Origin: Nitrospirales bacterium | GTDB taxonomy: Bacteria > Nitrospirota > Nitrospiria > Nitrospirales > UBA8639 | DNA length: 64,000 nt | Reading direction: 5' to 3' | Assembly: GCA_022828225.1 (NCBI GenBank) | Contig: JAJEJG010000013.1 | Coordinates: 186,001 to 250,000 of the forward strand | Shown here: positions 15,069-46,220 of the stretch, one piece after another | How the letters are laid out: each line of letters opens with the position of its first letter | Numbering within the stretch: position 1 is the first letter of the stretch | Program-made: the position numbers and the translations under genes | The notes under the pieces: generated by a model | Told to the model about the DNA's origin: nothing | What the model saw: the letters and a program-made list of their open reading frames with translations, nothing else | The model's database searches: none

Positions 15069-16001
15069 CTATCGGCCGGCGCCAAATGCGCCGACAAACC
15101 GGTCATGCTCGAAAATGCCGCCGACTTCTTCATGATTCGGGCCGTAGAACTGGCCTTGAATAGAATCTCCCTCGCTGTCCGTCTCGAAAGTTCCGTTCGT
15201 CACGGCCAAGCCGCCCCACATCATGTCTGCCCGTGATTGCCCTGTGCCCGCGTCACGGATATTGGTAAAGGCCACATCCATCGCCATTTGAGCCATATCA
15301 AGCGTCAACGTCGCATCCCCTCGAACAAGACTCCTATCGGATCCAACGGAACCCCCAACCATGCCGCCCCTCCAGGTGGCATTGCCGGACAGGGCCGGGT
15401 TCGTGCCCGTGGCATTTCCGATTGAGTACGCATACCCCGCCTCTAGGCCGGCCACGTCGCCGCCGTCACTCGTATCGTGCGTGACTCCTTCAAGCTGGAC
15501 AGCAAAAAAATTGTGATCCAACCAGCCGCCCAACAACGTCACGTCCACGGAAATCCCCGGTTCTGTCAGTTCTCCGCCACCTTCGGCAATGGAGACGCCT
15601 TGCTGCACGGCGATCCGTTGCCAGTCAATGTTGGGATCAAGGGCATCCAAATCGGATACGGACACACGTACATGTTCCACCCCGTTATACGACGCCGTAC
15701 ATGAATCTGTCGCACATGACGTGTTAAAGCGAAACGGCATCATTTGTCCGCCAACGGCAACGCTGGTCAAGACGTCACTGGCCAATATTGAATCGGCCGA
15801 CCCGGCAATTTGTGAGATGGTCGCTTGAACGTTATCGACCATGGGAGGAGCGTCCACCACCATAGCGGAACCACTGCCCCCCCCACCGCAACCAGCCAGC
15901 AGACCCGCCATAATGATGCACGCGACAACGTGACGTTTTAAACCATGAGGGGGGCCCACAGAACGCACGACATTTGGAACCACAGAGGTTAAGGTTTTCA
16001 T
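15069..16001 (-). CDS. Lipoprotein with TbpB-like beta-barrel domain and a duplicated leader
   Basis: A 310-residue product from the ATG at 16001, preceded by AGGAGG. The first 18 residues (MKTLTSVVPNVVRSVGPP) match the signal-peptide start of the two small secreted proteins at 16316 and 24304. A second, complete lipoprotein signal follows (LKRHVVACIIMAGLLAGC, then a glycine-rich linker). The C-terminal part has the TbpB/Slam-type barrel pattern, ending IQGQFYGPNHEEVGG and FVGAFGAGR, as in transferrin-binding-like solute-binding lipoproteins. The gene therefore looks like a lipoprotein gene that acquired the promoter, ribosome binding site and first codons of the secreted-protein family. Its ligand is unknown. 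Confidence 0.7.
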   Translation of the reverse strand: MKTLTSVVPNVVRSVGPPHGLKRHVVACIIMAGLLAGCGGGGSGSAMVVDAPPMVDNVQATISQIAGSADSILASDVLTSVAVGGQMMPFRFNTSCATDSCTASYNGVEHVRVSVSDLDALDPNIDWQRIAVQQGVSIAEGGGELTEPGISVDVTLLGGWLDHNFFAVQLEGVTHDTSDGGDVAGLEAGYAYSIGNATGTNPALSGNATWRGGMVGGSVGSDRSLVRGDATLTLDMAQMAMDVAFTNIRDAGTGQSRADMMWGGLAVTNGTFETDSEGDSIQGQFYGPNHEEVGGIFEHDRFVGAFGAGR

Positions 16002-16095
16002 GGCGTCCTCCTTTCTGGTTCTTTGTTTATCAGCTCTTAATTTCATTAACGGCCAGAAAATTGAATTTGACAAATAAATACTTTTCACCTTATCA

Positions 16096-16315: not shown

Positions 16316-16678
16316 TCACTCGCTTTTTTTCAGTTGGGCCATTTGCTCTTCATGCCAGGACACGTGTTCCTGAAGGCCCTGTAACTCTCCTCGCCACTTC
16401 CCAAGGACTCTTGTCCAACTCTGGCGTTTAAATCCTTTGGGATCACGGTAGGAGTTCTTGACCATGTCCAGCCGGTGTTCCAATTGTTGGATTTTTTGTG
16501 CAAGCACGGCCGCTTTGTCCTGGTGTTGCTGAATGGCTGCCTCGTGAAATTCGACGGATTGCATCATGGCCTCTCCTGCGAAGGGTTCGCTGGAAACGGT
16601 TCCTTTCGCAGCAAATCCGGGTAGGGTGAGTCCCACACAGAGTACGATGCTTGGAATCACAGCGGTTAAGGTTTTCAT
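16316..16678 (-). CDS. Small secreted coiled-coil protein, paralogue 1
   Basis: A 120-residue product from the ATG at 16678, preceded by AGGAGG. A signal peptide (MKTLTAVIPSIVLCVGLTLP, cut near GFAAKG) leads to a helical, glutamine- and lysine-rich mature part with heptad-like spacing (AVLAQKIQQLEHRLDMVKNS) and a tryptophan-containing end (RVLGKWRGELQGLQEHVSWHEEQM). The paralogue at 24304 is about as long and clearly similar throughout. Both sit opposite a LysR-type gene or remnant across an AT-rich promoter, which suggests control by that regulator. No known family was recognised. The longer frame up to 16774 runs through the promoter and was rejected. Confidence 0.75.
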   Translation of the reverse strand: MKTLTAVIPSIVLCVGLTLPGFAAKGTVSSEPFAGEAMMQSVEFHEAAIQQHQDKAAVLAQKIQQLEHRLDMVKNSYRDPKGFKRQSWTRVLGKWRGELQGLQEHVSWHEEQMAQLKKSE

Positions 16679-16772
16679 GTCGTCCTCCTTTCTTGTTCTT
16701 TGTTCATCAACTCTTATTTTATTAAATAACCATAAAAGGTCATCTAACAAATAAATAATATTAGGCATAACC

Positions 16773-16791
16773 ATCTATATTTTAGATGAAT
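16773..16791. promoter_or_regulatory. LysR-type operator/promoter, copy 2
   Basis: ATCTATATTTTAGATGAAT contains the inverted repeat ATCTA-N5-TAGAT. The upstream stretch TCTAACAAATAAATAATATT (16743-16762) is also found at 24723-24742. It faces the small secreted-protein gene; no regulator start codon follows on the plus side. Confidence 0.55.
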
Positions 16792-17125: not shown

Positions 17126-17461
17126 TTAGGATTCCGCTGATTCAAAATGACCTTTTCTGAGAACACCGACGTCCGATACGAACAGACTGCCGGAATGGCG
17201 TTCCAGGAACGGCTTGAGTCCGGAAAGGATAGGTTCTACCTTGTCTTCGGGAACAACCGTCAGGACCATTTGCAGGCTGCTTTCGTCGTTAAACATGAGG
17301 TGCCCTTCATGAAAGCCGCTGTGACCTTTGCCCGACAGACTGCTGAAGATGGTGTAGCCACTGGCTTTTATCCGATCCAGCACTTCCGTTACGAAGCTCA
17401 GGTGCTCGCCGTTGATGATGATCTTGATTTCTTTCATCGGGTGAAGCGTAATGCCACTCAT
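17126..17461 (-). CDS. PII-like regulator of the Dab operon (CPII-type)
   Basis: A 111-residue protein with the ferredoxin-like PII fold pattern: KEIKIIINGEHLSFVTEVLDRIKASGYTIF, a loop with GKGHSGFHEGHL, then LQMVLTVVPEDKVEPILSGLKPFLERHSGSLFVSDV. PII-like proteins of this kind are encoded beside DabA or carboxysome genes; the characterised CPII protein binds adenine nucleotides and bicarbonate. It is the last gene of the operon, 29 bases after dabA. It probably tunes the Dab pump or reports carbon or energy status; whether it binds nucleotide here is untested. Confidence 0.75.
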   Translation of the reverse strand: MSGITLHPMKEIKIIINGEHLSFVTEVLDRIKASGYTIFSSLSGKGHSGFHEGHLMFNDESSLQMVLTVVPEDKVEPILSGLKPFLERHSGSLFVSDVGVLRKGHFESAES

Positions 17462-17490
17462 GGTCGTCTAGTCCTCCTCAACCTGTTGGA

Positions 17491-20400
17491 TTACTGAATG
17501 CGTTGCCAGTCCTCTAAAGAATGCTGTTGGAAAAATTCCATTGTCACCGGATCCAATGCCACAAGATTGATCCATTGATTGCCGACGAGTCGCTTCAAAA
17601 CGTCATGTCGGGCTATAATCGCGCTGATTCGTTCCATGGGAGCTTCAATAATCACAAAGAGCCGCATGGGTTCGTGATAGGGCGTTTCAACGTCCAGAAC
17701 CGTTTGAACCGGCAGCCCAATACAGAGATCGCTTTGGGTTCCATACATGACTCCCACTCGTCCGACCACGTTGTGATAGACCTTACTCCCGCTGCCGTAT
17801 ACCACGGGGTCCACCGTGGAAAAATAATGTTCCATGTTGATCCAATTCGCGACGATCATGGGGGCGGTCATGATGATTTCCAGATATTTTCCCGTCGGAT
17901 CCTGCCGGTGATCATACGAGTGCAAAAAGGTTCGACCTTCGAGATTGAGGCCGTGTGTCAAGGCACGCCGGCCGACGATAAAAGCCGTGTGCCGCGACAG
18001 TCCCCATTCCGGCCGGACTTGCGACCAATCAACGCTGCGTAGTTTCGTACGCGCTGTGGCATGATTCAGAGATTGCCCATTGTTTCCCTCCGGGAAGCGA
18101 CTTAGCCGTTCAAGGCTGTTGCGCCTGCCGGCTTCTTCGAGGTCATGAATCAGTCTGTTCAAGTCTTTCCGGTGTGTCGCGGGAACGTCTTCCAGGTCAA
18201 ACAGTTGCACCTCGTCCGTCGTGGTATCGTGTTGACCCGGGAGAAAATGCGTATCGGCAGGAATAGTAATCCCTCTTTTGGCCAGTAATTGCCGGACTTG
18301 GCCTTTGTTGGCCATGGCGGCAAAGGCCCGGGCGTTGGAGACCCCGTGGTTTCCCCCGCAGGCCCCACAGTCCAAGGCCGACTCATAGGGATTGTTGTCC
18401 GAGGTGCTGGCATGACCACAAGCGAGCACCAACCGGGAAAAGGTTTTGGTGTTACCTAAAATCCGAAGCGCGGTTTCGACATAATGCGCCTGTTCGGTTG
18501 TCGTAAATCCCCTTTGCGTGATTCGGTGCATCCGATTCGTCACCGCTCGTTTATGGACGCCATACTCCCCCATGAGTTGTTGAAGAAATTTTTCATGGTC
18601 TGCTTCAGTCCAATGTAACAGTCGATGGAGTTCTTGATCTTCTGTGTTGTCTATCGAAACCTCATTCAACGCTTGCTTGCGAAGACGTTCGACCTGGTCG
18701 TGGGAGACCGCGTTGCCCAGACGACCGAACCGTTCGATTAACATGCGATAGATAATGGCCCGATGTTCGGAGGCGACCATTTCCTCGGCCTCATCCTTTG
18801 GCAGCTTTTCAACGGTCAAAGTCGTGCCGATGGAAATGTCAAAATGCTCCTTCACCCAGGACGTCAGCCGTTGATACCACAACGGTGCCAACGTTTGACC
18901 GAATAACCTGAATCCAAAAAACCATCCTATGGCTTCAACCATCACGTATGGCGTGATGACGTTTTCCTTCAAATCATGCAGAAGGGTGTGTCCGGTTTTG
19001 GCAAGTTGTTGTCGTTCCAGAAATTTGTCCGCAGCGTTGGCTTGGTACGCGCGAGGCACTTCTTTGATGATGTGTTTCGGTTTGAGCAGGACCGGGCATT
19101 GGTCGGTTTCATGTTCGCTTCCGAATTTCTCGAAGCACAAGGGAACTCCGAAAAATCCCGCAAACCCGAATGTTTCATTGCCTCCCACTTCTTCAAAATG
19201 CCTTCGAAATCCTTCGGAACGAACATCGATACAGAAGATGGCTTGAGTCAACGGACGTGATTCGGAAGGATGTTCCACCGGCTCATCACTCTGACGAAGT
19301 CGTTGAATGTTTGGGGAGAAGTGCTGGAGGAAGTCCATGATGTAGCTGCGTTCAAGCGCGTGCAGCCATAACGGACCGTGATGGGATTCCGGAAAACGGT
19401 CAACCCAATTGAATAGGATTTCCAAGGTTTCCGAAGGACTCTCGATGAGATCCTGCGCCGAGCAATCAAGGCAACGGGCAAGATGGACAAGGATACAGAC
19501 TTCGCGCTCTTTTGCCTGCCGTTGACGAACGGTTTGCCACGTGTGACTGGTTGCGACCCCCTGACGGTCCAGCTCATCGATAGGGAGCGGTTCCTGTATG
19601 AAGAGAGAAAGATCAAGGTTAGCCACCACTTGCTCGGCCAGTCCCGTCGTGCGCCATTCCTTGTAGAGCCCGTAGCCGTTCGGATGGTCGCGCAAGAAAG
19701 ATTGGATCGAAGTAAACGTGCCAGGGATGCCGAGCTTCGCTTCGCATGTACGAGCGACGAGTTCTCGTTCATAGAAGAGACGAATGGCGATGTACCTCAC
19801 CAAATCGATGGGGAAGGCCTGTTGCCATTGGTGGTTCGATTGTTCGGACCGCCATTTGATGAATCCCGTCCAACCCGGCAACTGAGCCAGATGCAAGGTA
19901 AAATAGTCGATCCACAGATCCTGAGGAATGGCCAATGTCTCTAAGCTCTCCCCAATGGCATCTGACGGGAGGTCCGGAAGGTTTCGGATTTTGGATTTCC
20001 AACCCTGAATACCGAACAACGGGCCGGTCCAGTCCTCTTGGGCCAACATTTTCCACCCATCGTAAAACGTCTTGTTGCGACGAGGCATCGGCCACGGCGC
20101 ATGGCCTTCGTCGAGAAAACCGCCACACCATTTGATGAGTTCCTGGTTGATCTGGTCTTGGATGCCCGTCCCGAGCGTGGCATCGCACCAATGGGCAAGA
20201 GTGTACTCCGACCCAAGCTCGTGTTGTTCACGGTCGGCGTGAAGATTGAGTGAAAATCGTTGTTCCTGCGACCTGGAGAAGACTTGGAGTTTTTCACGCA
20301 GCACGGTCAGGTCGGTCTCGCTCAGCGAACGTTCTAAAACGGCCGAGGCCACGTCAGGCTCGAGGGTTCCAGTCCCATGGATGAAAACGGTTTTCAAAAC

Positions 20401-20736
20401 CTCCAGATGAGTCACCGTTCGATTTCCAATAACCACGTGCTGCTCTTGCGCTCTGGTCTGTAAGGTTTCATGAATGGCACTCGCGGAGATGCGCCCTTGT
20501 TGAAAATACTTCCGGTATTGGCTATTGGGCAGATAGCCGTTCCCGCCGATAAATTTTCTGGCCTCCTCGATGGCTTCTTCGAAGGGTAAATGTTCCAGGC
20601 CATGGAGGGGATTGTGGTGGATAAAAGTTTGCATGGGCCAGTAATGGGAAATGGTCTCGCTCGCCAGTTTGACAAGCGAACGCAATTCCATGCGCTGGGT
20701 ATCTTGCGGTGCTACCGATTGTTTGACGTTTGCCAT
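17491..20736 (-). CDS. dabA: DabA, zinc-binding subunit of the inorganic-carbon pump (DUF2309)
   Basis: A 1081-residue cytosolic protein of the DUF2309/UPF0753 family. DabA resembles a beta-carbonic anhydrase and, with the membrane subunit DabB, converts CO2 to bicarbonate in a one-way, cation-gradient-driven manner. The predicted zinc and catalytic residues are present: Cys502 and Asp504 (FCIDVRSEG), His775 (ACGHAS) and Cys790 (LDCGACGG). The 15-residue gap between the last two equals that between the published residues His524 and Cys539 of Halothiobacillus DabA2. The protein is longer than that enzyme, mainly in the region between the two motif pairs. It lies third in the operon. Confidence 0.95.
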   Translation of the reverse strand: MANVKQSVAPQDTQRMELRSLVKLASETISHYWPMQTFIHHNPLHGLEHLPFEEAIEEARKFIGGNGYLPNSQYRKYFQQGRISASAIHETLQTRAQEQHVVIGNRTVTHLEVLKTVFIHGTGTLEPDVASAVLERSLSETDLTVLREKLQVFSRSQEQRFSLNLHADREQHELGSEYTLAHWCDATLGTGIQDQINQELIKWCGGFLDEGHAPWPMPRRNKTFYDGWKMLAQEDWTGPLFGIQGWKSKIRNLPDLPSDAIGESLETLAIPQDLWIDYFTLHLAQLPGWTGFIKWRSEQSNHQWQQAFPIDLVRYIAIRLFYERELVARTCEAKLGIPGTFTSIQSFLRDHPNGYGLYKEWRTTGLAEQVVANLDLSLFIQEPLPIDELDRQGVATSHTWQTVRQRQAKEREVCILVHLARCLDCSAQDLIESPSETLEILFNWVDRFPESHHGPLWLHALERSYIMDFLQHFSPNIQRLRQSDEPVEHPSESRPLTQAIFCIDVRSEGFRRHFEEVGGNETFGFAGFFGVPLCFEKFGSEHETDQCPVLLKPKHIIKEVPRAYQANAADKFLERQQLAKTGHTLLHDLKENVITPYVMVEAIGWFFGFRLFGQTLAPLWYQRLTSWVKEHFDISIGTTLTVEKLPKDEAEEMVASEHRAIIYRMLIERFGRLGNAVSHDQVERLRKQALNEVSIDNTEDQELHRLLHWTEADHEKFLQQLMGEYGVHKRAVTNRMHRITQRGFTTTEQAHYVETALRILGNTKTFSRLVLACGHASTSDNNPYESALDCGACGGNHGVSNARAFAAMANKGQVRQLLAKRGITIPADTHFLPGQHDTTTDEVQLFDLEDVPATHRKDLNRLIHDLEEAGRRNSLERLSRFPEGNNGQSLNHATARTKLRSVDWSQVRPEWGLSRHTAFIVGRRALTHGLNLEGRTFLHSYDHRQDPTGKYLEIIMTAPMIVANWINMEHYFSTVDPVVYGSGSKVYHNVVGRVGVMYGTQSDLCIGLPVQTVLDVETPYHEPMRLFVIIEAPMERISAIIARHDVLKRLVGNQWINLVALDPVTMEFFQQHSLEDWQRIQ

Positions 20737-20747
20737 GGTCGCTCTTC

Positions 20748-21992
20748 CTAATTGATCAATATACTAAAACTTGCGCCGAAAATGATCAGGACCAGGGAGC
20801 AGATTTCGGCAACCCTCAAATCGGTATAGGGGATGTCCGATCGTGCTTTTCCAAAGAGTGTGTGGTGCAGCACATGTGAGAAATGCCAACTGCCAAACAT
20901 CCAGACACCGACAAACAACAACGAAATGATGACTAAAGAGCCCCCCTGGTTTTCCGTTGCCGGCATGGTCGTAATGCCGCCGAAGATGGGAATGATCGGA
21001 AGCAGGACGGCGATGCTGATCAAAAGACCCACTAACGTCCCGAGACGCGGCATGGGAGACGCCAGCCCGGGGAGATTGCCGATGGTGGGCGACCCATACC
21101 GTTGTTGGACAAAGGCATAGGCGACAAACAGTCCGTTCATCACCAGCCCGACCGTGATCCCGAACGGGATTCCCCATTCCGAAAAAGAGGAGAAGACGGT
21201 GGTCAGTCCCCACAAAAGCGTAACATGGACAATGGTGGCATAGGTGAGCAAAACATGGATCTGGTTTTGCCCCAAACACTTGAGAGACGCGTACAGCCCG
21301 CCCAGTAAGGCCAGGAATGCGATGGCCACGTGTATTTCCGTTACCATGGGAATCACAGTTTGCAGGTTGTGGATTTCAGCCAATCCGAGGGCTAAGAACG
21401 CCACCGTCCATACCCCGGAAAGCATTCCTCGCGCGGAGCCGACCAGGGAGGTGAAGAGAACGTGAAATGGCGGCAGTGGCACGAGCGTAACCGCAAGAAA
21501 AAGGCCGGCTGATCCGTCAAAGGAGTCCCCACCCCAGAAGAAAACGCTGCTGAGAACAATGGCAATAGCCGCCTGCGCAAGGCCAATGGTTTTGCGTGTG
21601 GCGGAAAGTTTCGAGCGGTAGAGAGAAAAGGCGGCAAAAGCGAACAAGCCGATGAGAAAATACCTGTTGACGGGTGCGGGGCCGCACAGTGCGGCAAGAC
21701 ACAGTCCCAACACCACCAGGGGTTCGTCCAGAGGCGTTGAAGAACGTTTGGAATCCCATTGTCCGAGGACGACACAAAACGTCGAAAAGATGACGGCCGC
21801 TGACAGATAAGTCGCGATTCGAGCGGTTTCGAATGCGGCGTACACGTAGAGGATCGTTCCGGCTTCCCACCCGATGCACAGCATGGCCAAAACCTGAAAG
21901 ATCGAATGCGAAATGCGGCCGGTGCGGTTGAGCAACCAGAGAACAAGGGGGATGAGAACGGCCAGCAACGTTATGGAAAATTCTGAAGCCAT
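20748..21992 (-). CDS. Second antiporter-like membrane protein of the dab operon
   Basis: A 414-residue integral membrane protein with about 12 hydrophobic segments, encoded between dabB and dabA. Short stretches (PLPPFHVLFTSLVG; GMLSGVWTVAFLALGLAEIHNL; IHVLLTYATIVHVTLLWGL) recall a worn NuoM/NuoN-type antiporter fold, but the conserved lysine and glutamate of the active families are not evident. The start at 21992 follows GAGGAAGG and avoids overlap with dabB; a frame from 22061 overlaps it. Some characterised dab loci carry an extra, short antiporter-like gene reported as dispensable, so it may be accessory. Its function here is unknown. Confidence 0.75.
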   Translation of the reverse strand: MASEFSITLLAVLIPLVLWLLNRTGRISHSIFQVLAMLCIGWEAGTILYVYAAFETARIATYLSAAVIFSTFCVVLGQWDSKRSSTPLDEPLVVLGLCLAALCGPAPVNRYFLIGLFAFAAFSLYRSKLSATRKTIGLAQAAIAIVLSSVFFWGGDSFDGSAGLFLAVTLVPLPPFHVLFTSLVGSARGMLSGVWTVAFLALGLAEIHNLQTVIPMVTEIHVAIAFLALLGGLYASLKCLGQNQIHVLLTYATIVHVTLLWGLTTVFSSFSEWGIPFGITVGLVMNGLFVAYAFVQQRYGSPTIGNLPGLASPMPRLGTLVGLLISIAVLLPIIPIFGGITTMPATENQGGSLVIISLLFVGVWMFGSWHFSHVLHHTLFGKARSDIPYTDLRVAEICSLVLIIFGASFSILIN

Positions 21993-22009
21993 TGCGGATC
22001 GACCTTCCT

Positions 22010-23710
22010 CTAATACCGGTGTCCGAATTTTTGCGCCAAGTGGAAGAGCGCGTTGCTCCACCTTACGTAGATCAGATCGACGTACAACCGGTTGATCAGA
22101 AGAATATAGAGGCGTTGTTGCAATGCAAGAATCCTATCCGGGTTGATAATCGTGTGTCCTTTCGCATCGGTATAGACGTAGAACCAGCCGAAGAGAATAC
22201 AAATGGTGGCGAGCAGGATGATTGTATCGAACACCGCAGGATTGAAAGCCGCGGCCACGAAGAATTCGTCTGCCACACCCGGTTCGGGATACAGAAAGTG
22301 CGTGAATTGTTCGCCTGCCCAGAGGTACGTGAACCCAATGAGAAACAACGTGCCGACCATGGCACCGGACACCTTCCAGGAAGCTACGTCATGCAGTCGA
22401 GATAAGCTGAAAATGGCTTGGGAGGCGGTGACCCAACTGAAAAAGAGGAAAATGACTGCGCCATGTGCGTCTTGCAGCGGAACTTCCAACAGGCCGTGTG
22501 CGACCATCAAAATAAACAGTGGCATGAGTAAGGTAATGGTCAATCCCGTTACCCAGCTTGCCTGGGTGGGAAGCCTGACGGGTTTGTGAGTTAACGAAGA
22601 AGGGAATTTCGGTTCATGTCTGGCACTGTGAATCACGGTCCCGGCGCTTAAGAAGAGTGAGGCTTTAAACAGGCCGTGCGCAATCAGATGAAAAATGGCC
22701 AGGGCAAAAGCCCCGAGGCCGCATTCCATGATCATATAACCCATTTGTCCCATCGTGGAAAATCCCAGTGTTTTCTTGATGTCGTTTTGGACGAGCATCA
22801 TCGAGGCCCCCAAAAGGACGGTGGCGGCGCCGACAATGAACACGATATGCAGGACGTCGGGTGAGAGCGCATACAACGGTGCGAGTCGATTAAGAAGGAA
22901 TCCTCCCGCGTTGACAATACCAGCATGCATGAGCGCCGAAACCGGGGTTGGAGAGTCCATGGTATCCGGCAACCAGACGTGGAGAGGGAACTGGGCCGAT
23001 TTGGCCATGGCTCCGATGAAAATGAGCAATGCAATGACGGACGGTGCCGTGACGTCGAGCATATGTCCGGGCAGCAGTGAAATCACGTGGACTTGTTCGG
23101 AGGCTCGCCGGAAGAGCTCGGCAAATTCGAGCGTGCCGAAATAGTGATACGTCAGGACAAGGCCGCAGAGGAACGCGACGTCTCCGACCCGGTGCACAAT
23201 GAACGTTTTGAACGCGTTCTGATAGGCCGGCACGTGTGAAAAATTAAACGCAAGAATCAGGTACAGGGCCCAACTCAACAACTGCCAGAAGACAAACAGC
23301 ATCAGGAGGTTCGGACTGGAAACGAGCGCGAGGATGACAAAGGTTATGAAGCCGAGTAACGCGAAGAATCGGGCATAGCCGGAATCACCTCGGAGATAAC
23401 GAACGGAAAACACGTGAATCACGGTGCTGACGCCGGTGATCAGGACCATCATCACGGCCGTGAGCCGGTCAACCAACATGCCGAACGTGAAAAACGAGGA
23501 ACCATCGTCCTGGAGCGGCCAGAGGGTCACCCGAAAAGGCTCGCCCGAGCTGACGGAGTACAACGTGACAATGGAGAGGATGCCGGCTCCCACTGTGGCA
23601 CTGATTCCTATGGTTGCCACGTACGGGGCGAAGCGTTTCCCGAGCACACTGATCAATAAACCGGCGACGAACGGAAGGAGGGGAATAAGGATTGCTGTCG
23701 TCGTCATCAC
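22010..23710 (-). CDS. dabB: DabB, NuoL-like cation channel subunit of the inorganic-carbon pump
   Basis: A 566-residue membrane protein of the proton-conducting (PF00361) family related to NuoL/MrpA. It has the central channel motifs AMAKSAQFPLHVWLPDTMDSPTPVSALMHAGIVNAGG and LVQNDIKKTLGFSTMGQMGYM, plus GLFKASLFLSAGTVIHS. DabB docks DabA to the membrane and supplies the cation flow. It is the first gene of the four-gene operon. GTG at 23710 or ATG at 23707 may be the start; AAGGGAG lies a few bases upstream. Whether H+ or Na+ is used cannot be read from the sequence, but the neighbouring nhaD makes sodium worth testing. Confidence 0.93.
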   Translation of the reverse strand: MMTTTAILIPLLPFVAGLLISVLGKRFAPYVATIGISATVGAGILSIVTLYSVSSGEPFRVTLWPLQDDGSSFFTFGMLVDRLTAVMMVLITGVSTVIHVFSVRYLRGDSGYARFFALLGFITFVILALVSSPNLLMLFVFWQLLSWALYLILAFNFSHVPAYQNAFKTFIVHRVGDVAFLCGLVLTYHYFGTLEFAELFRRASEQVHVISLLPGHMLDVTAPSVIALLIFIGAMAKSAQFPLHVWLPDTMDSPTPVSALMHAGIVNAGGFLLNRLAPLYALSPDVLHIVFIVGAATVLLGASMMLVQNDIKKTLGFSTMGQMGYMIMECGLGAFALAIFHLIAHGLFKASLFLSAGTVIHSARHEPKFPSSLTHKPVRLPTQASWVTGLTITLLMPLFILMVAHGLLEVPLQDAHGAVIFLFFSWVTASQAIFSLSRLHDVASWKVSGAMVGTLFLIGFTYLWAGEQFTHFLYPEPGVADEFFVAAAFNPAVFDTIILLATICILFGWFYVYTDAKGHTIINPDRILALQQRLYILLINRLYVDLIYVRWSNALFHLAQKFGHRY

Positions 23711-23960
23711 GTGCTCCCTTCCAAACGGACGAGGCTGACGCTCATGAAGGTCTCTACCTATGAAAATCGGGCAGTTCGGTCACACGACTCTTCGGACTGC
23801 TGTCCGTGTCAGACAAGGGGGAAGCTGACGTACGGTCATAGGATTCGTCTTCTTTTTTACTCAAGTGGAAGCGTGTTCTTCAAGGGGTACTTGTAATAGC
23901 CTGGATATCTTACATAGCCGAATTAGTGGTTCATTATTGATCCATCCATTAGGCGGGTCT

Positions 23961-24198
23961 GTCAAGTGCCGGCGTCGTCGCAGCCCGCGCAGAATGTCCA
24001 ATTGCGCGTGCCTGAAGACGCGAGGGGTGAGAAATTGTCTGCTTGCGTGAGCCGCAGGCTGATACTGATAGGCGTCGGAAAAGTGGTCTGGCGTTATGCG
24101 AATGAAATCTTTTGTTTGCAGAGAATTATCCGGCACGTTGAAAGGTCATGGGACCCAACGCCCCATGCGTCTGGTCGCCGGTCGCGGAATTGCCCCAT
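23961..24198 (+). pseudogene. Second remnant of the NhaR-like regulator gene
   Basis: About 80 codons align at DNA level with 24860-25100 of the intact regulator: GTCGCAGCCCGCGC; CTTGAAGACGCG versus CCTGAAGACGCG; GTGGTCTGGCGTTATGCG versus GTGGTCTACCGTTACGCG; CACGTTGAAAGGT; CAACGCCCCAT. The first 25 codons are missing, several frameshifts are present, and the copy ends at the same base pair as the other remnant. Traces of the operator (TTGATCCATCCATT, 23937-23950) remain upstream. A 91-codon frame on the other strand is only its shadow. Confidence 0.75.
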
Positions 24199-24203
24199 AA
24201 AGA

Positions 24204-24240
24204 GAGAGGGAGACCGGAACGTAGTCCCGGTCTCCCTCTC
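24204..24240 (-). terminator. Hairpin terminator, copy 2
   Basis: GAGAGGGAGACCGGAAC (24204-24220), loop GTA, and GTCCCGGTCTCCCTCTC (24224-24240); one mismatch in a 17-bp stem. It follows the small secreted-protein gene on the minus strand exactly as copy 1 does at 16228-16266. Confidence 0.75.
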
Positions 24241-24303
24241 ATCCAGCCAGCCGAACATGTTTCTATGACGTCGGTTGGGCTTCTGATCGCCCCCTCGCTT
24301 TTT

Positions 24304-24660
24304 TCACGTTTTCAACTGAGCAAGTTGTTCTTCATGCCAGACAATGCGTTGCTGGATATCCCTTAATTCCCCGCGCCACGTCGCAACCATTCTTTTCCAA
24401 CTGGCGCGTCGAAAGCCTTTGGGATCCCGGTAGGAGTTCTTCAACATGTCCAGCCGGTTTTCCAATTGTTGGATTCTCTGTTCAAGCATGGCCGCTGTGT
24501 CCTGGTGTTGCTGAACGGCTGTCTTGTGAAATTCGACGGATTGCACCGTGGCCTCTTCCGCGAAAGGTCCGCCGGGAACGGGGCCATCCGCAGCAAATGC
24601 GGGTAGAGTCAGTCCCACACACAGCACGAATGTTGGTAGCATAGCGGTTAAGGTTTTCAT
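24304..24660 (-). CDS. Small secreted coiled-coil protein, paralogue 2
   Basis: A 118-residue protein with signal peptide MKTLTAMLPTFVLCVGLTLP (cut near AFAADG) and a helical mature part (TAAMLEQRIQQLENRLDMLK, then NSYRDPKGFRRASWKRMVATW and IVWHEEQLAQL). It is a clear paralogue of the product of 16316-16678, sharing YRDPKGF, the WRGEL block and WHEEQ. AGGAGG precedes the ATG. It is divergently placed from the intact NhaR-like gene with the LysR-type box between them, so it is the best candidate for direct regulation by that protein. No family was recognised; a periplasmic stress or binding role is only a guess. Confidence 0.75.
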   Translation of the reverse strand: MKTLTAMLPTFVLCVGLTLPAFAADGPVPGGPFAEEATVQSVEFHKTAVQQHQDTAAMLEQRIQQLENRLDMLKNSYRDPKGFRRASWKRMVATWRGELRDIQQRIVWHEEQLAQLKT

Positions 24661-24783: not shown

Positions 24784-25683
24784 ATGGACTGGCTCAACTA
24801 CCATCATCTGCTCTATTTCTGGGTGATTGCCCGGGAAGGGTCCATTAAGAATGCCCGGGAAGTGCTGTCGTTGTCGCAGCCCGCGCTGAGTGCTCAATTA
24901 CGCGCGCTTGAAGACGCGATAGGGGAAAAACTATTTTCTCGGGTTGGCCGCAAACTGGTTCTGACGGACGTGGGAAAGGTGGTCTACCGTTACGCGGAAG
25001 AAATTTTTTCGCTGGGCAGAGAATTAACCAGCACGTTGAAAGGTTACGGAACCCAACGCCCCATTCGGCTGGTGGTCGGCATCGCGGAAGCCGTCCCCAA
25101 AATGGTGGCCTATAAACTGCTGAAGGTTGCGTGCAAACAGTTCGAGCACATCCAAATCGTGTGCTGGGAAGGTCGCTTGGAGCGGTTGTTGGGGGAACTC
25201 GCTCTTCATGCACTGGACATTGTCTTGACGAACACTCCCGTCCCGCCCAGCGTCAGTATCGAAGCCCATACCCAGTTGCTTGGGCAATCGGGAGTGACGC
25301 TCTTCGGACCCGAACACCTGGCCCCTCACTATCAACGGAACTTTCCACGGTCATTGGACGGGGCGCCGTTTCTGTTGCCGACGCCCAATTCGACACTCAG
25401 ACGGGGCTTGGATGATTGGTTTCGAAAACACGGCATAGAGCCTTTCGTCGTCGGCGAGTTTGAAGATGGGGCCACGATGCAAGCATTCGCCCAGGAAGGG
25501 CACGGGCTGTTTCCCGGCTCTTCGGTTGTTGAGTCGGAAATAGCTCGGCAAAATCAGGTCCGAAAAGTGGGACTAATTACGGGTCTCAGCGAAAGCTTCT
25601 ATGGTATTACGGTTGAACGCCGTTTAAAGCATCCGGCTGTGTTGGCGATTTCCGAGGCCGCGAAAGAAAGAGTCTTCAGGTAA
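24784..25683 (+). CDS. LysR-family regulator, NhaR-like
   Basis: The 299-residue product has the LysR plan. The N-terminal helix-turn-helix (MDWLNYHHLLYFWVIAREGS; LSLSQPALSAQLRALEDAIG) strongly resembles NhaR, including VVYRYAEEIFSL. A C-terminal effector-binding domain follows (about 90-299). NhaR of enteric bacteria senses sodium and activates an Na+/H+ antiporter gene. Here the gene is divergent from a small secreted-protein gene and lies between the dab operon and a broken second dabA, so it may control carbon-uptake or sodium-related genes. Two decayed partial copies of this gene lie at 16121 and 23961. Confidence 0.88.
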   Translation: MDWLNYHHLLYFWVIAREGSIKNAREVLSLSQPALSAQLRALEDAIGEKLFSRVGRKLVLTDVGKVVYRYAEEIFSLGRELTSTLKGYGTQRPIRLVVGIAEAVPKMVAYKLLKVACKQFEHIQIVCWEGRLERLLGELALHALDIVLTNTPVPPSVSIEAHTQLLGQSGVTLFGPEHLAPHYQRNFPRSLDGAPFLLPTPNSTLRRGLDDWFRKHGIEPFVVGEFEDGATMQAFAQEGHGLFPGSSVVESEIARQNQVRKVGLITGLSESFYGITVERRLKHPAVLAISEAAKERVFR

Positions 25684-25770: not shown

Positions 25771-27335
25771 ATGAGCCCCATCTCGATACAAGCGCTCTCC
25801 CCAGAAGAACGGGAGAAGGTCCGGGAGACGGTCGCCCAAGCCAGCGAACCGACCCCACCGTTTTGGCCCATGCAGGTCATGGTGGCCCAAAATCCCATGC
25901 ACGGTTTGGAATATCTCTCCTTTGACGAAGCCGTTCGCAAAGGCAAACACCTGCTGGGCGGTAACGGGTACCTGGCCAATGAAGAGTACCGGGAGTTCTA
26001 TCGAGCGGGACGCATCACCGCCGGCAATCTCAAGCGGGCCCTGGCGCGCGTGGGTCCGCGATCGGAACAGATCCGGGCGGTCACGGTCGGGGGCCGCGAA
26101 ATCACGGCCGAGGAGGTGTGGCGGTTGCACGTGGTGTATGGGTTCGAGGCATTGGAGCCTGCCCTATTGGAATGGGAACTGAGCGGTGATGGTGCCAAGA
26201 AGCGATTCAGACAGGACCTGCCGGACGAATCCGCACAACGGATCATCGAACGCACGATCCGGGAATGCGAGCATTGCCGGGATCACCCCGAGGAAGCCTA
26301 TCTGACGAATCTGTGGAAAACCGTGTTGGCGGCATTGGGGCTCTCCGGTGCACGGCCAGGCGAGCAGGACGCATCACATGTCCCTAGCGATGTGGCCTTG
26401 CCGGCCCAGCGCACCGTCAGCGATTGGGTGGATGTCCTTGCCGGCACGACGCTTGTCGAGGAGATCAATAACCAGCTCATCAAATGGTTGGCGGCGTTTG
26501 TCGATGAAGGCTTGGCCGGCTGGGAAATGCCGGGTAGATACGGGGGATTCTATGCAGCCTGGCGGGATTTGGCGCAACACGATCAGTCCCACCGGTTTGA
26601 AGGCATTCGACAATTCCAACAAAAAATCAGCGAACTGCCGTCTGAGCCCGAGGATGCGATTGCGTCGAGCCTGCATCGTCTGGGCGTGCCCGAGGCGAGT
26701 TGGAGCGATTACCTCGCCCGCCAGTTGTCCCAATTGCCGGGGTGGCCCCGGTTCATTCGCTGGCTGGAGACGAATCCCGCGTACCATGCGCAACGCAAAC
26801 ATCCGGTCGATGCGGTCCAGTATCTGGCGGTGCGGTTGTTCTACGAAGCCGAATTGGCGCAGGCGACCTGCCGGCGGGAATGGAGGACTCACGGTACCGT
26901 GCCGGCGCTGGTTGCCTATTGGCAAGAGCGTTCGGATGAATACGCAAAAAGGATGAGTGGGGGCGCACATGCCGTGGACCCCCTAAAACGGGCCATTTGC
27001 CGTGATGCCTGGCGGCTGTTTCATCTCGCTCAGGTGTTGGAAATGTCGCCGCTCGAGATGCTCGATCTATCTTCGGACGATGCGCGCACGGTGTTGGGAT
27101 GGCTGGATGCCTTTCCTCCGGACCAACACGGTCCGGTGTGGCTTGAGGCCTACGAAGACTTCTTTCGAGCCGACATTATCAAAAGACTTACGACGCACTG
27201 AGGCATCGTGTTCAAAAGCACGCGATCCTCCAGCAACTCTTCCATAACCAATGGCTCAATCTGGTGGCCATCGATCCTTACACCTTGAAGTTTCATCGCT
27301 ATCTTCCCGACGCCGCCTGGGAACGGGTCGGATAA
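25771..27335 (+). pseudogene. dabA: Second dabA gene, broken by an internal deletion
   Basis: Positions 25771-27201 encode 476 residues matching the N-terminal part of DabA (TPPFWPMQVMVAQNPMHGLE; GGNGYLANEEYREFYRAGRI; NNQLIKWLAAFVDEGLAGWE) up to HGPVWLEAYEDFF, which corresponds to about residue 460 of the intact DabA at 17491. After the stop, another frame (about 27192-27335) encodes the family C-terminus (LFHNQWLNLVAIDPYTLKF, aligning with LVGNQWINLVALDPVTMEF). The central 500 or so residues with all four zinc-site residues are gone. The N-terminal frame is still open, so a truncated protein could be made, but it cannot be a working DabA. No dabB accompanies it. Confidence 0.88.
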
Positions 27336-43033: not shown

Positions 43034-43049
43034 GGTTGAGTGATTGGCG

Positions 43050-44621
43050 ATGCTTGAAGAACTGGAATTCGGCTTCCCGATTTTGTCGATGCTGCTCTTT
43101 GTTCCGCTTCTCGGGGCGATCGGGTTGTGGGCATTACGGGATACCGGGCTGATCAAGAAGACGGCGCTGGGCGTCGCGCTCTTTGAGTTGGCGCTGGCCG
43201 CACTCTTATTGCTCCGGTTCATCCCGGAATCCGCGGCCATGCAATTCAGCGAACGGCTGAGCTGGATTCCGGCTCTGGGCATTTCCTATCACCTGGCCGT
43301 GGACGGTATCAGCATCCTGTTCGTCGGCCTTTCGGCCTTCATCACGGTCCTGATCATTCTCTACTCCTGGGATACCGTGCAGGACAGGGCCAAAGCGTAC
43401 TTCATGAGCATCCTGGCGTTGGAAACGACGATCATGGGGATTTTCGTGTCCATCGACCTGATTCTCTTCTTCGTGTTCTGGGAACTGATGCTTGTGCCCA
43501 GCTATTTCCTGATCAAGCTGTGGGGCGTGGGTGAGCACAAACACTACGCCGCACTCAAGTACGTGTTGTACACCCTGTTGGGCAGCGTGTTCATGCTGGT
43601 CGGTTTCGCCCTGCTGAGTTTGAATTACCACGATGTCACGAATACGTATAGTTTCGATTTGCTGGACCTGTTGAAAGTGCCGGTTCCGGTTTCGGATCAG
43701 CTCTTGATCTTCTGGTTCATCTTCATGGGGCTAGCCTTCAAAGCTCCGGTCTTTCCATTCCACACGTGGTTGCCGGACGCGCTCGTACAAGGGCCGATCG
43801 GGATGTCCGTGGTCTTGGCGGGCGTCAAATTGGGTACGTACGGGTTCCTGCGATTCAGCTTCCCGTTGCTGCCGGAAGCTTCGACCAATGCCACGGTGGT
43901 AGTGATCGTCATGAGTCTGGCGCTGGCCGCCATTGTCTGGGGGGCCATTATCGCCATCATGCAAGCGGACTTCCGACGCCTGCTCGTCTTCAGCAGCATC
44001 AGCCACTTGGGGTTCGTCGTGTTGGGCCTGTTCGCCTTGAATTTCCAGGGTCTGCAAGGCAGCTTGCTGCAAATGATCAATTTGGGATTTACCACCGCCG
44101 GGCTCTTTTTCCTGGCCGGGTTTCTCTATGACCGGCTCGGCAATACGCTCCTCGACAATTGCGGAGGAATCGCTTCGAAAATGCCTCTCCTGGCCACCTT
44201 TTTCCTGATCATCGGAATGGCCTCGATCGGATTGCCCGGGACGAATGGATTCATTGGGGAATTTTTGATCCTGCTCGGCGCCTTTCAAGCGCATTGGGTA
44301 TACGGGGCCGTGGCTGTCTCGGGCGTGATCTTCGCCGCGGCCTATTTTTTGTGGTATTACGAGCGGGCGATTTTCGGCCCCATCGGCGAGCACGTCCCGC
44401 AAGTGCTCAAGGACCTGACCCAACGCGAAACGATCATCGCCGTGTCCCTGTGTGTCATGATTTTCTGGATCGGGCTCTACCCCTCACCATTTTTGCGAAT
44501 GGTCAACGGCTCGGTGCAAGCCGTGGTGGACCGGTTGGACCGCGGGTCGGTCGCGAGCATTGAACAGGATGGAACACTGTTGTCCCATGCCGTGGTTTCC
44601 GAATCCGGAGGGAAGGACTAA
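43050..44621 (+). CDS. nuoM: Complex I subunit M, first copy (more canonical)
   Basis: A 523-residue antiporter-like proton pump subunit. Typical motifs are MGLAFKAPVFPFHTWLPDAL, IAIMQADFRRLLVFSSISHL and GLPGTNGFIGEFLILLG, and the HTWLPDA and FIGEF patterns make it the more conventional of the two copies. ATG 43050 was chosen; a TTG two codons upstream is possible. The next nuoM starts only three bases after its stop, so the two are co-translated. Confidence 0.95.
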   Translation: MLEELEFGFPILSMLLFVPLLGAIGLWALRDTGLIKKTALGVALFELALAALLLLRFIPESAAMQFSERLSWIPALGISYHLAVDGISILFVGLSAFITVLIILYSWDTVQDRAKAYFMSILALETTIMGIFVSIDLILFFVFWELMLVPSYFLIKLWGVGEHKHYAALKYVLYTLLGSVFMLVGFALLSLNYHDVTNTYSFDLLDLLKVPVPVSDQLLIFWFIFMGLAFKAPVFPFHTWLPDALVQGPIGMSVVLAGVKLGTYGFLRFSFPLLPEASTNATVVVIVMSLALAAIVWGAIIAIMQADFRRLLVFSSISHLGFVVLGLFALNFQGLQGSLLQMINLGFTTAGLFFLAGFLYDRLGNTLLDNCGGIASKMPLLATFFLIIGMASIGLPGTNGFIGEFLILLGAFQAHWVYGAVAVSGVIFAAAYFLWYYERAIFGPIGEHVPQVLKDLTQRETIIAVSLCVMIFWIGLYPSPFLRMVNGSVQAVVDRLDRGSVASIEQDGTLLSHAVVSESGGKD

Positions 44622-44624
44622 ACG

Positions 44625-46220
44625 ATGGGACAGTTGGCCTTACTGGCAACCCTGTTTGCCCCGTTCCTGGGGTCGATCGTATTGCTGTTCATTCCCAATC
44701 GTCAGCCGTTCCTGGTGCGTGTCGTCGCCGCGGCCTCCGCCGGGGTGTCGCTACTTGCCTCGCTCTACGTGTTTCTGGCCTATGACCCCGACAAGGGAGG
44801 TTTCCAGTTCATCACCAATTGGGCGTGGTCCGAAGAATTGGGAATAGGTTTTCACATCGGAGTGGATGGAATCGGGGCACCCCTGGTTTTTGCATCGGCC
44901 ATTCTGCTGTTCGCGGGCATCTTCATTTCGTGGCACATCAAGGATCGCACCAAGGAATTTTATATCTTCCTGTTGATCCTGGCGGCGGCGACCATCGGGG
45001 TGTTCATGTCGTTGGACCTGTTCTTCCTCTACTTCTTCTATGAAATGTCGGTGTTGCCCATGTACGTGCTGTTGGGCGTGTGGGGGAGTCATACCAAGGG
45101 CTATTTGAGCATGACCGATGAGGAGGGTCGCAAGCTCAGGGATTCGGTCGGGTTCATCCTGAACTTCGGGTCGAACAGCAAGGAATACGCCGCGATGAAG
45201 CTTACGCTGTTTCTCTCGGCGGGAGCGGTGTTCGCATTGATGGGCATCCTGCTGATTTACCATTTCTCGCCCGTCCAGACGTTCGATATTCTGGTGTTGC
45301 GGGAAGTAGCCCATTTCGACGGCACGCTGGCGACGATCATCTGGGTGTTGGTCTTCTTCGGTTTTGCGTCCATCGCACCCATTTGGCCGTTGCATTCCTG
45401 GTCGCCCGTCGGTCACGCCGCGGCGCCGGCCGCGACCAGTATGCTGCATGCCGGCGTGCTGATGAAGCTCGGGCATTTCTCCATTATTCGCGTGGCCTAT
45501 GAAATCCTTCCCGATGCCACGCGGGAACTTATGCCCATCGCCGCGGTGTTGTGCGTGTTCAGCATTATCTACGGCGGGTTCGTGGCGTATTTCGCCAAGG
45601 ACACGAAGTACGTCATCGGCTATTCCAGTTCCAGTCACATGGGCTACGTGTTCCTGGGCATGGCCGCCCTGGATTACATCAGCCTGACCGGCGCGGTGAT
45701 TTACATGTTCGCGCACGCGTTGGCCACGGGCATGCTCTTCGCCATGGCAGGGTGGGTCTACGACCAAACCCATACCCGGGATATTCCATCCCTGGGCGGG
45801 CTGGTCAAGAACATGCCGTTCCTGGCCGGGGCCTTTATTATCGCCTGCATGGCGTCGGTCGGGATGCCGGGCACCGTGAACTTTATCGCCGAAATCATGA
45901 TTATCGTCGGCTCGTGGGAGAAATATCCGTTCCAGGTGGTGGTGGCCGTGTTGGGGATCGTCTTGACGATGGCCTATCTGTTCAAAATGATGCGCGGCCT
46001 GTTCTACGGACAAATGTCGCCTGAATACGCGCATGCCCGTGACACGTCGCACTGGGTGGACCGCCTTCCGCTGCTCCTGATGATCGGCTGCAGCATCTTC
46101 TTCGGCATCTTCCCCATGCATTTTTATAACGTCGTGCGCTCCACGGTCGTGCCGATGTTGGATCGAATCAATCAAGTGGCTCCGCTGGTTACGCAAAATA
46201 CCACGGGACTCTTGCCGTAA
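44625..46220 (+). CDS. nuoM: Complex I subunit M, second divergent copy
   Basis: A 531-residue NuoM paralogue, clearly different from the first copy and so not a recent duplicate. The central motif reads WPLHSWSPVGHAAAPAATSM where HTWLPDAH.EAPT is usual, but the channel lysine (GVLMKLG) and the later FAKDTKYVIGYSSSSHMGYV block are kept. It has a hydrophilic insertion around residues 160-185 (TDEEGRKLRDSV). It should form the fourth proton pump of a 2M-type complex I together with the lengthened NuoL helix. Confidence 0.93.
   Translation: MGQLALLATLFAPFLGSIVLLFIPNRQPFLVRVVAAASAGVSLLASLYVFLAYDPDKGGFQFITNWAWSEELGIGFHIGVDGIGAPLVFASAILLFAGIFISWHIKDRTKEFYIFLLILAAATIGVFMSLDLFFLYFFYEMSVLPMYVLLGVWGSHTKGYLSMTDEEGRKLRDSVGFILNFGSNSKEYAAMKLTLFLSAGAVFALMGILLIYHFSPVQTFDILVLREVAHFDGTLATIIWVLVFFGFASIAPIWPLHSWSPVGHAAAPAATSMLHAGVLMKLGHFSIIRVAYEILPDATRELMPIAAVLCVFSIIYGGFVAYFAKDTKYVIGYSSSSHMGYVFLGMAALDYISLTGAVIYMFAHALATGMLFAMAGWVYDQTHTRDIPSLGGLVKNMPFLAGAFIIACMASVGMPGTVNFIAEIMIIVGSWEKYPFQVVVAVLGIVLTMAYLFKMMRGLFYGQMSPEYAHARDTSHWVDRLPLLLMIGCSIFFGIFPMHFYNVVRSTVVPMLDRINQVAPLVTQNTTGLLP

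Follow-up and report, generated by a model that had tools for sequence, protein, structure and literature searches.

A DAB1-type operon of a Nitrospirales bacterium with a predicted NuoM-lineage third subunit that lacks the proton-path residues

The dab operon considered here belongs to a Nitrospirales bacterium (assembly GCA_022828225.1) and lies in a window of 64,000 nucleotides, which is the whole stretch of DNA analysed (positions 186,001 to 250,000 of contig JAJEJG010000013.1). It comprises dabB, a gene for a membrane protein of 414 residues (the third protein hereafter, counted from an ATG; a GTG start lies further upstream in the open reading frame list), dabA, and a gene for a PII-like protein (Table 1). 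The gaps between them are only about 18 bp (dabB/third gene), 11 bp (third gene/dabA) and 29 bp (dabA/PII), and the four genes are therefore regarded as one tight operon. This is the order proposed by the initial annotation: the open reading frames lie where it had placed them, and the Pfam matches support the assignments. Purifying selection acts on all four genes, with ratios of nonsynonymous to synonymous substitution rates (dN/dS) of 0.31–0.37 for the third gene, 0.09–0.17 for dabB, 0.15–0.17 for dabA and, the lowest of the four, 0.02–0.05 for the PII-like gene.

Table 1. The dab operon and its divergent regulator gene (positions are those of the window)
Feature	Position	Strand	Remarks
dabB (NuoL-like proton-conducting subunit), 566 aa	22010-23710	minus	PF00361 8.8e-58 + PF00662
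Third subunit (DAB1 interstitial gene), 414 aa	20748-21992	minus	predicted NuoM-lineage fold, without proton-path residues
dabA, long (DAB1) type, zinc carbonic-anhydrase-like cytoplasmic subunit, 1081 aa	17491-20736	minus	PF10070 4.5e-268
DabA helical insert (residues ~640-742)	18511-18819	minus	between membrane finger and zinc-site strand
CPII-type PII-like gene, 111 aa	17126-17461	minus	PF00543 1.8e-22
Divergent LysR-family regulator gene	24784-25683	plus	PF00126/PF03466; NCBIfam NF008284 (NhaR) just below cut-off

The arrangement itself is already known. In Halothiobacillus neapolitanus, the order nuoL, putative transmembrane protein, DUF2309, and PII/SbtB homologue has been reported (PMC4633670), and DAB1 has been described as a three-subunit complex that includes hneap_0908 (PMC13144422). 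The interstitial gene of DAB1 belongs to PF00361 and, together with dabAB1, complements carbonic-anhydrase-free Escherichia coli; the seven other operon genes are not required for this complementation, the PII gene being dispensable there (PMC7714395). PII genes at the 3′ end of nuoL–dabA operons are also a feature of COGNAT clade B (PMC5700660). Since the order is the one published for the carboxysome-linked DAB1 locus, the operon of the window is a member of DAB1, and the proposal of the initial annotation is not supported as far as a new departure from the minimal DabAB pump is concerned. In the literature searched, no paper connects dab genes with Nitrospira, which does not prove that none exists.

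What the window adds is a full-length third protein with a confident predicted fold. A profile search against PF00361, proposed by the initial annotation, gave a weak match of 23.9 bits, which still exceeds the gathering score of 21.5 bits; among 79 homologues, 59 matched the same family at E ≤ 1e-3. The AlphaFold2 model, built from the alignment of these 79 homologues, has a mean predicted local distance difference test score (pLDDT) of 87.6 and a predicted template modelling score (pTM) of 0.91. It displays the antiporter fold of 14 transmembrane helices (TM), with broken TM7 and TM12, and over its whole length it matches complex I ND4/NuoM, NdhD and Mrp subunits in the PDB (Foldseek E 8e-10), the best matches being 7ar9_M (Z 36.2) and the NdhD of NDH-1MS, which serves CO2 uptake (6tjv_D, Z 35.6). 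The profile of the third-protein family scored 56 bits on NuoM1 of the window, 40 bits on its second NuoM and 22 bits on NuoN; about 33 bits were obtained for NuoL in a later run with the filters off. These fold matches, and the highest profile scores being those on NuoM, assign the third protein to the NuoM lineage, with a complete predicted fold of the NuoM/ND4/NdhD type where the initial annotation had seen traces of a NuoM/N fold. The window complex I operon carries two nuoM genes in tandem (43044–44618 and 44622–46217, plus strand).

The third protein shares the fold of the proton-pumping NuoM/NdhD subunits, but not their four key residues. At the positions of the TM5 Glu, TM7 Lys, TM8 Lys and TM12 Glu of the NuoM proton path, none of the 79 homologues keeps the residue, and hydrophobic or small residues take their place; the lack of clear proton-path residues that had been noticed in the single protein thus extends to the whole family. 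Other polar residues are still conserved, namely the PFH His and a Gln of TM9–10 (73/79 each), and 13 columns of the alignment are invariant across the 79 sequences.

The two neighbouring subunits are intact. DabB matches the DabB2 chain of the DAB2 structure (PDB 9rd0_B) at 6.2e-47, and R182, D185, K235, S256, H260, K310, S316, H339, H343 and K347 of DabB2 correspond to R174, D177, K237, S258, H262, K312, S318, H341, H345 and K349 of the window protein. Substitution of these residues in the DabB of DAB2 impairs activity (PMC13144422). Position 258 is S, H or T among the DabBs linked to a third gene, and the other proton-path equivalents are fixed in all 72 of them. By this alignment, the NuoL-like DabB (PF00361/PF00662) keeps the residues of its proton path, as a DAB1 DabB should; NuoL Glu144 is replaced by Gln143. 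DabA, whose residues were likewise assigned from sequence alignments, matches 9rd0_A (DabA2) at 5.5e-107, and its zinc ligands (C502, H775 and C790), its dyad (D504–R506) and its finger residue (E601) are invariant in 55 DabA sequences. The DabA model is similar in fold to CsoSCA, the carbonic anhydrase of carboxysomes (Z 10.1); DAB2 was not among its fold-search matches, perhaps because the structure set searched ends in April 2026.

In addition to PF10070 and these residues, the protein has the long form characteristic of DAB1. The spacing from the finger to the DCGAC motif is 187 residues, within the 179–189 of the other DAB1 loci, as against 97–112 in two-gene and type II DabA proteins. 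The difference corresponds to an insert of about 70–90 residues, much shorter in the two-gene and type II proteins, which directly follows the membrane finger; the helices 647–740 are predicted at a pLDDT of about 80–90. The locus is accordingly unlike the two-gene DAB2 type in its gene between dabB and dabA, in its DabA of 1081 residues and in its spacing (187 vs. 97–110). The insert was considered as a feature belonging to the third protein and this was rejected: loci that lack the third gene have the insert as well as those that carry it, and hence it marks DAB1.

The PII-like gene directly follows dabA, as in other DAB1 loci. The nearest solved relative of its product is PDB 5d4n (E 3.5e-31, residues 1–103), which we take to be the carboxysome-associated CPII of Thiomonas, and by this likeness the protein is assigned to the CPII kind. 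The suggestion that the third protein has a PII-type regulator of its own was rejected: a PII gene does accompany the third gene, but it is not specific to it, since loci devoid of the third gene keep the PII gene. The PII gene goes with the DAB1 clade rather than with the third gene.

The third gene is stably placed, as the initial annotation had supposed. The third protein was found in 36 of the 60 relatives searched, although the weakest matches may be ordinary NuoM, and the order dabB–third gene–dabA–PII recurs in the loci read and, with few exceptions, in a further 80 loci from named genomes, of which most are Nitrospira. A search of genome contigs for the third protein also returned mainly Nitrospira. 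About 95 loci in total, mostly of Nitrospirota, have this common gene order, and an interrupted third gene was noticed only once among them (L053). Given this recurrence, the arrangement is not due to chance. Many Nitrospira loci (L057, L058, L081, L086, L099-L124) have two tandem dabB genes, in the order dabB–dabB–third gene–dabA–PII. Besides Nitrospira, the 80 loci include Nitrosomonas nitrosa Nm90, Nitrosomonas sp. Nm51 and one deltaproteobacterial bin. In Nitrosomonas nitrosa Nm90 (L135, 6519–7866), sbtA and a PII-like gene stand just before dabB–third gene–dabA, so that two carbon-uptake systems are combined in one locus, and cbbO-like and cbbQ genes are found near the dab set. Around Nitrosomonas, 369 genomes sampled from the class and 399 from the order contained no clear further third protein, and tblastn with the Nitrosomonas third protein gave no match on plasmids.

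A search of plasmids with DabA led to the dab loci of plasmid 1 of Nitrobacter hamburgensis. On this plasmid of strain X14 (L155), the set of dabB, a hypothetical gene, dabA and PII is present in two tandem copies, followed by LysR, RuBisCO and csoS2 genes. The hypothetical protein, of 253 residues, occupies the same position between dabB and dabA as the PF00361-type gene of the window, and aligns with positions 162–407 of the third-protein profile at 29.5 bits (29–31), a score obtained with a large composition bias; 300 shuffles of the same protein scored no more than −0.1 bits, and membrane proteins other than antiporters scored below 9 bits. The DAB1 DabA clade that includes Nitrobacter hamburgensis, and through it the carboxysome-linked DabA, has a support of 99/96; the Nitrobacter hamburgensis branch is long.

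Some loci of DAB1 lack the third gene. In the second locus of Nitrospira defluvii, a long dabA and PII accompany dabB and the third gene is missing; the same holds for two related genomes (L207, L208, L210). In the DabA tree, such loci fall inside the DAB1 clade, between Nitrobacter hamburgensis and the rest, so that a single loss is the simplest history; their finger spacing is 184–187 (L207, L208, L210, L211). Since such loci exist with dabB, long dabA and PII, the third protein is an accessory component, with PII not specifically its partner, and by this phylogeny the gene appears to have been lost once in one Nitrospira clade. The two groups also differ in DabB: Gln143 and Arg174 are found in 72/72 DabBs linked to the third gene, and His143 with Ser/Gly174 in three DAB1 DabBs without it. 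Positions 143 and 174 belong to the surface at which NuoL is in contact with NuoM in complex I. This contrast is suggestive, being what would be expected if the lateral face of DabB contacts the third protein. A contact between DabB TM5/6 and TM12 of the third protein, positive at first in the coevolution analysis, was discarded when it vanished after hub correction.

From the gene order, folds, residue content, phylogeny and purifying selection, which are shown here, we infer proton coupling, a docking site, a scaffold role and regulation by CPII, and the reading that we consider probable, with some reserve, is the following: a vectorial carbonic anhydrase of the DAB1 type, in which a proton-silent subunit derived from NuoM serves as scaffold and a CPII-type protein as regulator. 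Driven by the proton motive force, ions would enter by way of the DabB half-channel and the DabA membrane finger (Glu601); the analogy of DAB2 suggests that these ions are protons. This flow would be coupled to one-way hydration of CO2 at the zinc site of DabA, and bicarbonate would accumulate in the cytoplasm of the autotroph. The genome has an ATP-citrate lyase and no RuBisCO was found in it; the bicarbonate would therefore serve a reverse tricarboxylic acid cycle autotroph and not a carboxysome. The third protein would most likely dock laterally on DabB, at TM5/6, as NuoM does on NuoL, and act as a proton-silent scaffold or stabiliser and not as a second pump, while adenylate and bicarbonate would probably be the signals by which the CPII-type protein tunes the activity. 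TM5 of NuoL lies opposite TM12 of NuoM in complex I. In the third protein the TM12 Glu is replaced by Phe, Leu or Ile and, given that DabB has Gln in place of Glu144, the lateral proton relay between the two proteins seems to have been deliberately broken.

Other roles of the third protein have to be weighed against this scheme. That it is a second ion-translocating subunit, allowing more ions per CO2, is quite unlikely: its complete NuoM-type fold with broken TM7 and TM12, its conserved PFH His and TM9–10 Gln, the many Nitrospira loci with two tandem dabB genes and a third gene, and the suggested relation between the number of membrane subunits and that of ions (COGNAT, PMC5700660) would all agree with it, but the four key Glu/Lys positions are missing in 79/79 and the family can dispense with N-terminal helices or even with the whole gene. 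The constant position of the gene between dabB and dabA could instead indicate a CO2 conduit or membrane adaptor which supplies DabA or holds it in place, perhaps by way of the insert that lies right after the membrane finger, and is no partner of DabB. This is unlikely as well, given that the insert is not specific to loci with the third gene. The least probable view, a very unlikely one, is that of a decaying relic, retained in the operon with little function of its own. It would explain the highest dN/dS of the four genes, the progressive shortening in some lineages and the clade-wide loss, but this dN/dS is clearly below 1, the 13 invariant columns persist, and the gene is kept in so many loci with a single interrupted copy noticed.

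Several observations weigh against the proton-silent scaffold docked on DabB. Selection constrains the third gene less than the other three, and the gene is missing from one clade. The loci lacking it belong to that single clade, in which 13 of 141 near-invariant DabB columns change, and the residue contrast at positions 143 and 174 may thus reflect clade history. When 97 paired loci (effective number of sequences about 42) were tested for mutual information, there was no signal at the predicted interface once hubs had been corrected for. The N-terminal helices are absent from the third protein in some relatives, and most of the N-terminal half in Nitrobacter; this shortening sits poorly with a precise channel and fits a scaffold.

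A bolder version of the scaffold reading is tentative and, in our estimate, rather doubtful. DAB1 would be a three-subunit machine in which a proton-silent NuoM-derived subunit replaces NuoM beside the NuoL-type pump, the two jointly driving the carbonic anhydrase; it would be a redox-free counterpart of NdhF3–NdhD3–CupA, with the silent subunit as an essential stator or coupling brake and, in many Nitrospira, possibly with two DabBs and the silent subunit. More generally, the unnamed interstitial gene of DAB1 gains a concrete predicted identity, of NuoM lineage and proton-silent. The set associated with carboxysomes is widespread in RuBisCO-independent Nitrospira relatives, and the clade with the same pump and no third gene provides a natural experiment on the role of the extra subunit.

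The LysR gene adjoins the same operon in several relatives of the genus and, in genome G005 (L214), a type II dabA; its product is probably the regulator of the dab locus. A LysR-like fragment (23927–24265, plus strand; 113 residues, 50 bits) lies between dabB and the intact LysR gene. The operon is flanked on both sides by small secreted paralogues with near-identical signal peptides (MKTLTA...), at 16316–16774 and 24304–24660 (both minus strand); a further frame at 15069–16088 (minus strand) has only its start in common with them.

Beyond the intact LysR gene lies a second dabA, of type II (plus strand); the truncated gene is at 25771–27201 and the remnant as a whole at 25771–27332. Its N-terminal part (residues 1–528) is followed in a different frame by roughly the last 40 codons, with the catalytic half deleted, and therefore this copy is a remnant; truncated copies are also present in two genomes of the same genus (L033, L219). 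In relatives, type II dabA has no adjacent dabB and stands in the order SulP–dabA–MrpE... MrpB, MrpC, MrpD–NuoL-like–NuoM-like, kept in many genomes of the family (L212, L195-L199, L214-L216, L223, and others), and the finger residue is Asp instead of Glu. This arrangement matches COGNAT clade C, described with a sulfate permease and NuoM (PMC5700660). Within the genus, each genome has an intact dabA of one type only, I or II, which suggests that the two types can replace one another. An MpsC family gene (PF10057; 13939–14310, plus strand) lies about 3 kb from the dab operon. Since MpsC genes are found directly beside type II dabA in relatives (L212, 7412–7780; L190, 12077–12460), the one in the window is probably a leftover of a type II locus.

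Among the known systems, the closest is DAB1 of H. neapolitanus (hneap_0909 dabB1, hneap_0908, hneap_0907 dabA1, and PII/SbtB), which by its published description has the identical order, a long DabA (1046 residues) and an interstitial PF00361 protein. It sits in a carboxysome locus and its interstitial protein is described as small, whereas the operon of the window has a full-length antiporter-like third protein of 414 residues in a genome without RuBisCO. Nitrobacter hamburgensis X14 has dabB, a membrane protein, a long dabA (1037 residues), PII and a nearby LysR gene, but its third protein has 253 residues and the locus adjoins RuBisCO and csoS2. DAB2 (DabA2–DabB2, PDB 9rd0) has homologous DabB and DabA proteins, with the zinc site, the finger Glu and the proton-path residues conserved; it differs in having two genes, no third subunit, no PII, and a DabA about 200 residues shorter. 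For the PII-like protein, the counterpart is Thiomonas CPII (PDB 5d4n), of the same family by a full-length sequence alignment. Finally, cyanobacterial NDH-1MS (NdhF3, NdhD3, CupA) is similar in plan, combining a NuoL-type and a NuoM-type subunit with a carbonic-anhydrase-like cytoplasmic subunit. NDH-1MS, however, is a redox-driven complex I, while the operon of the window has no redox subunits and its NuoM-type subunit is devoid of the proton-path residues.

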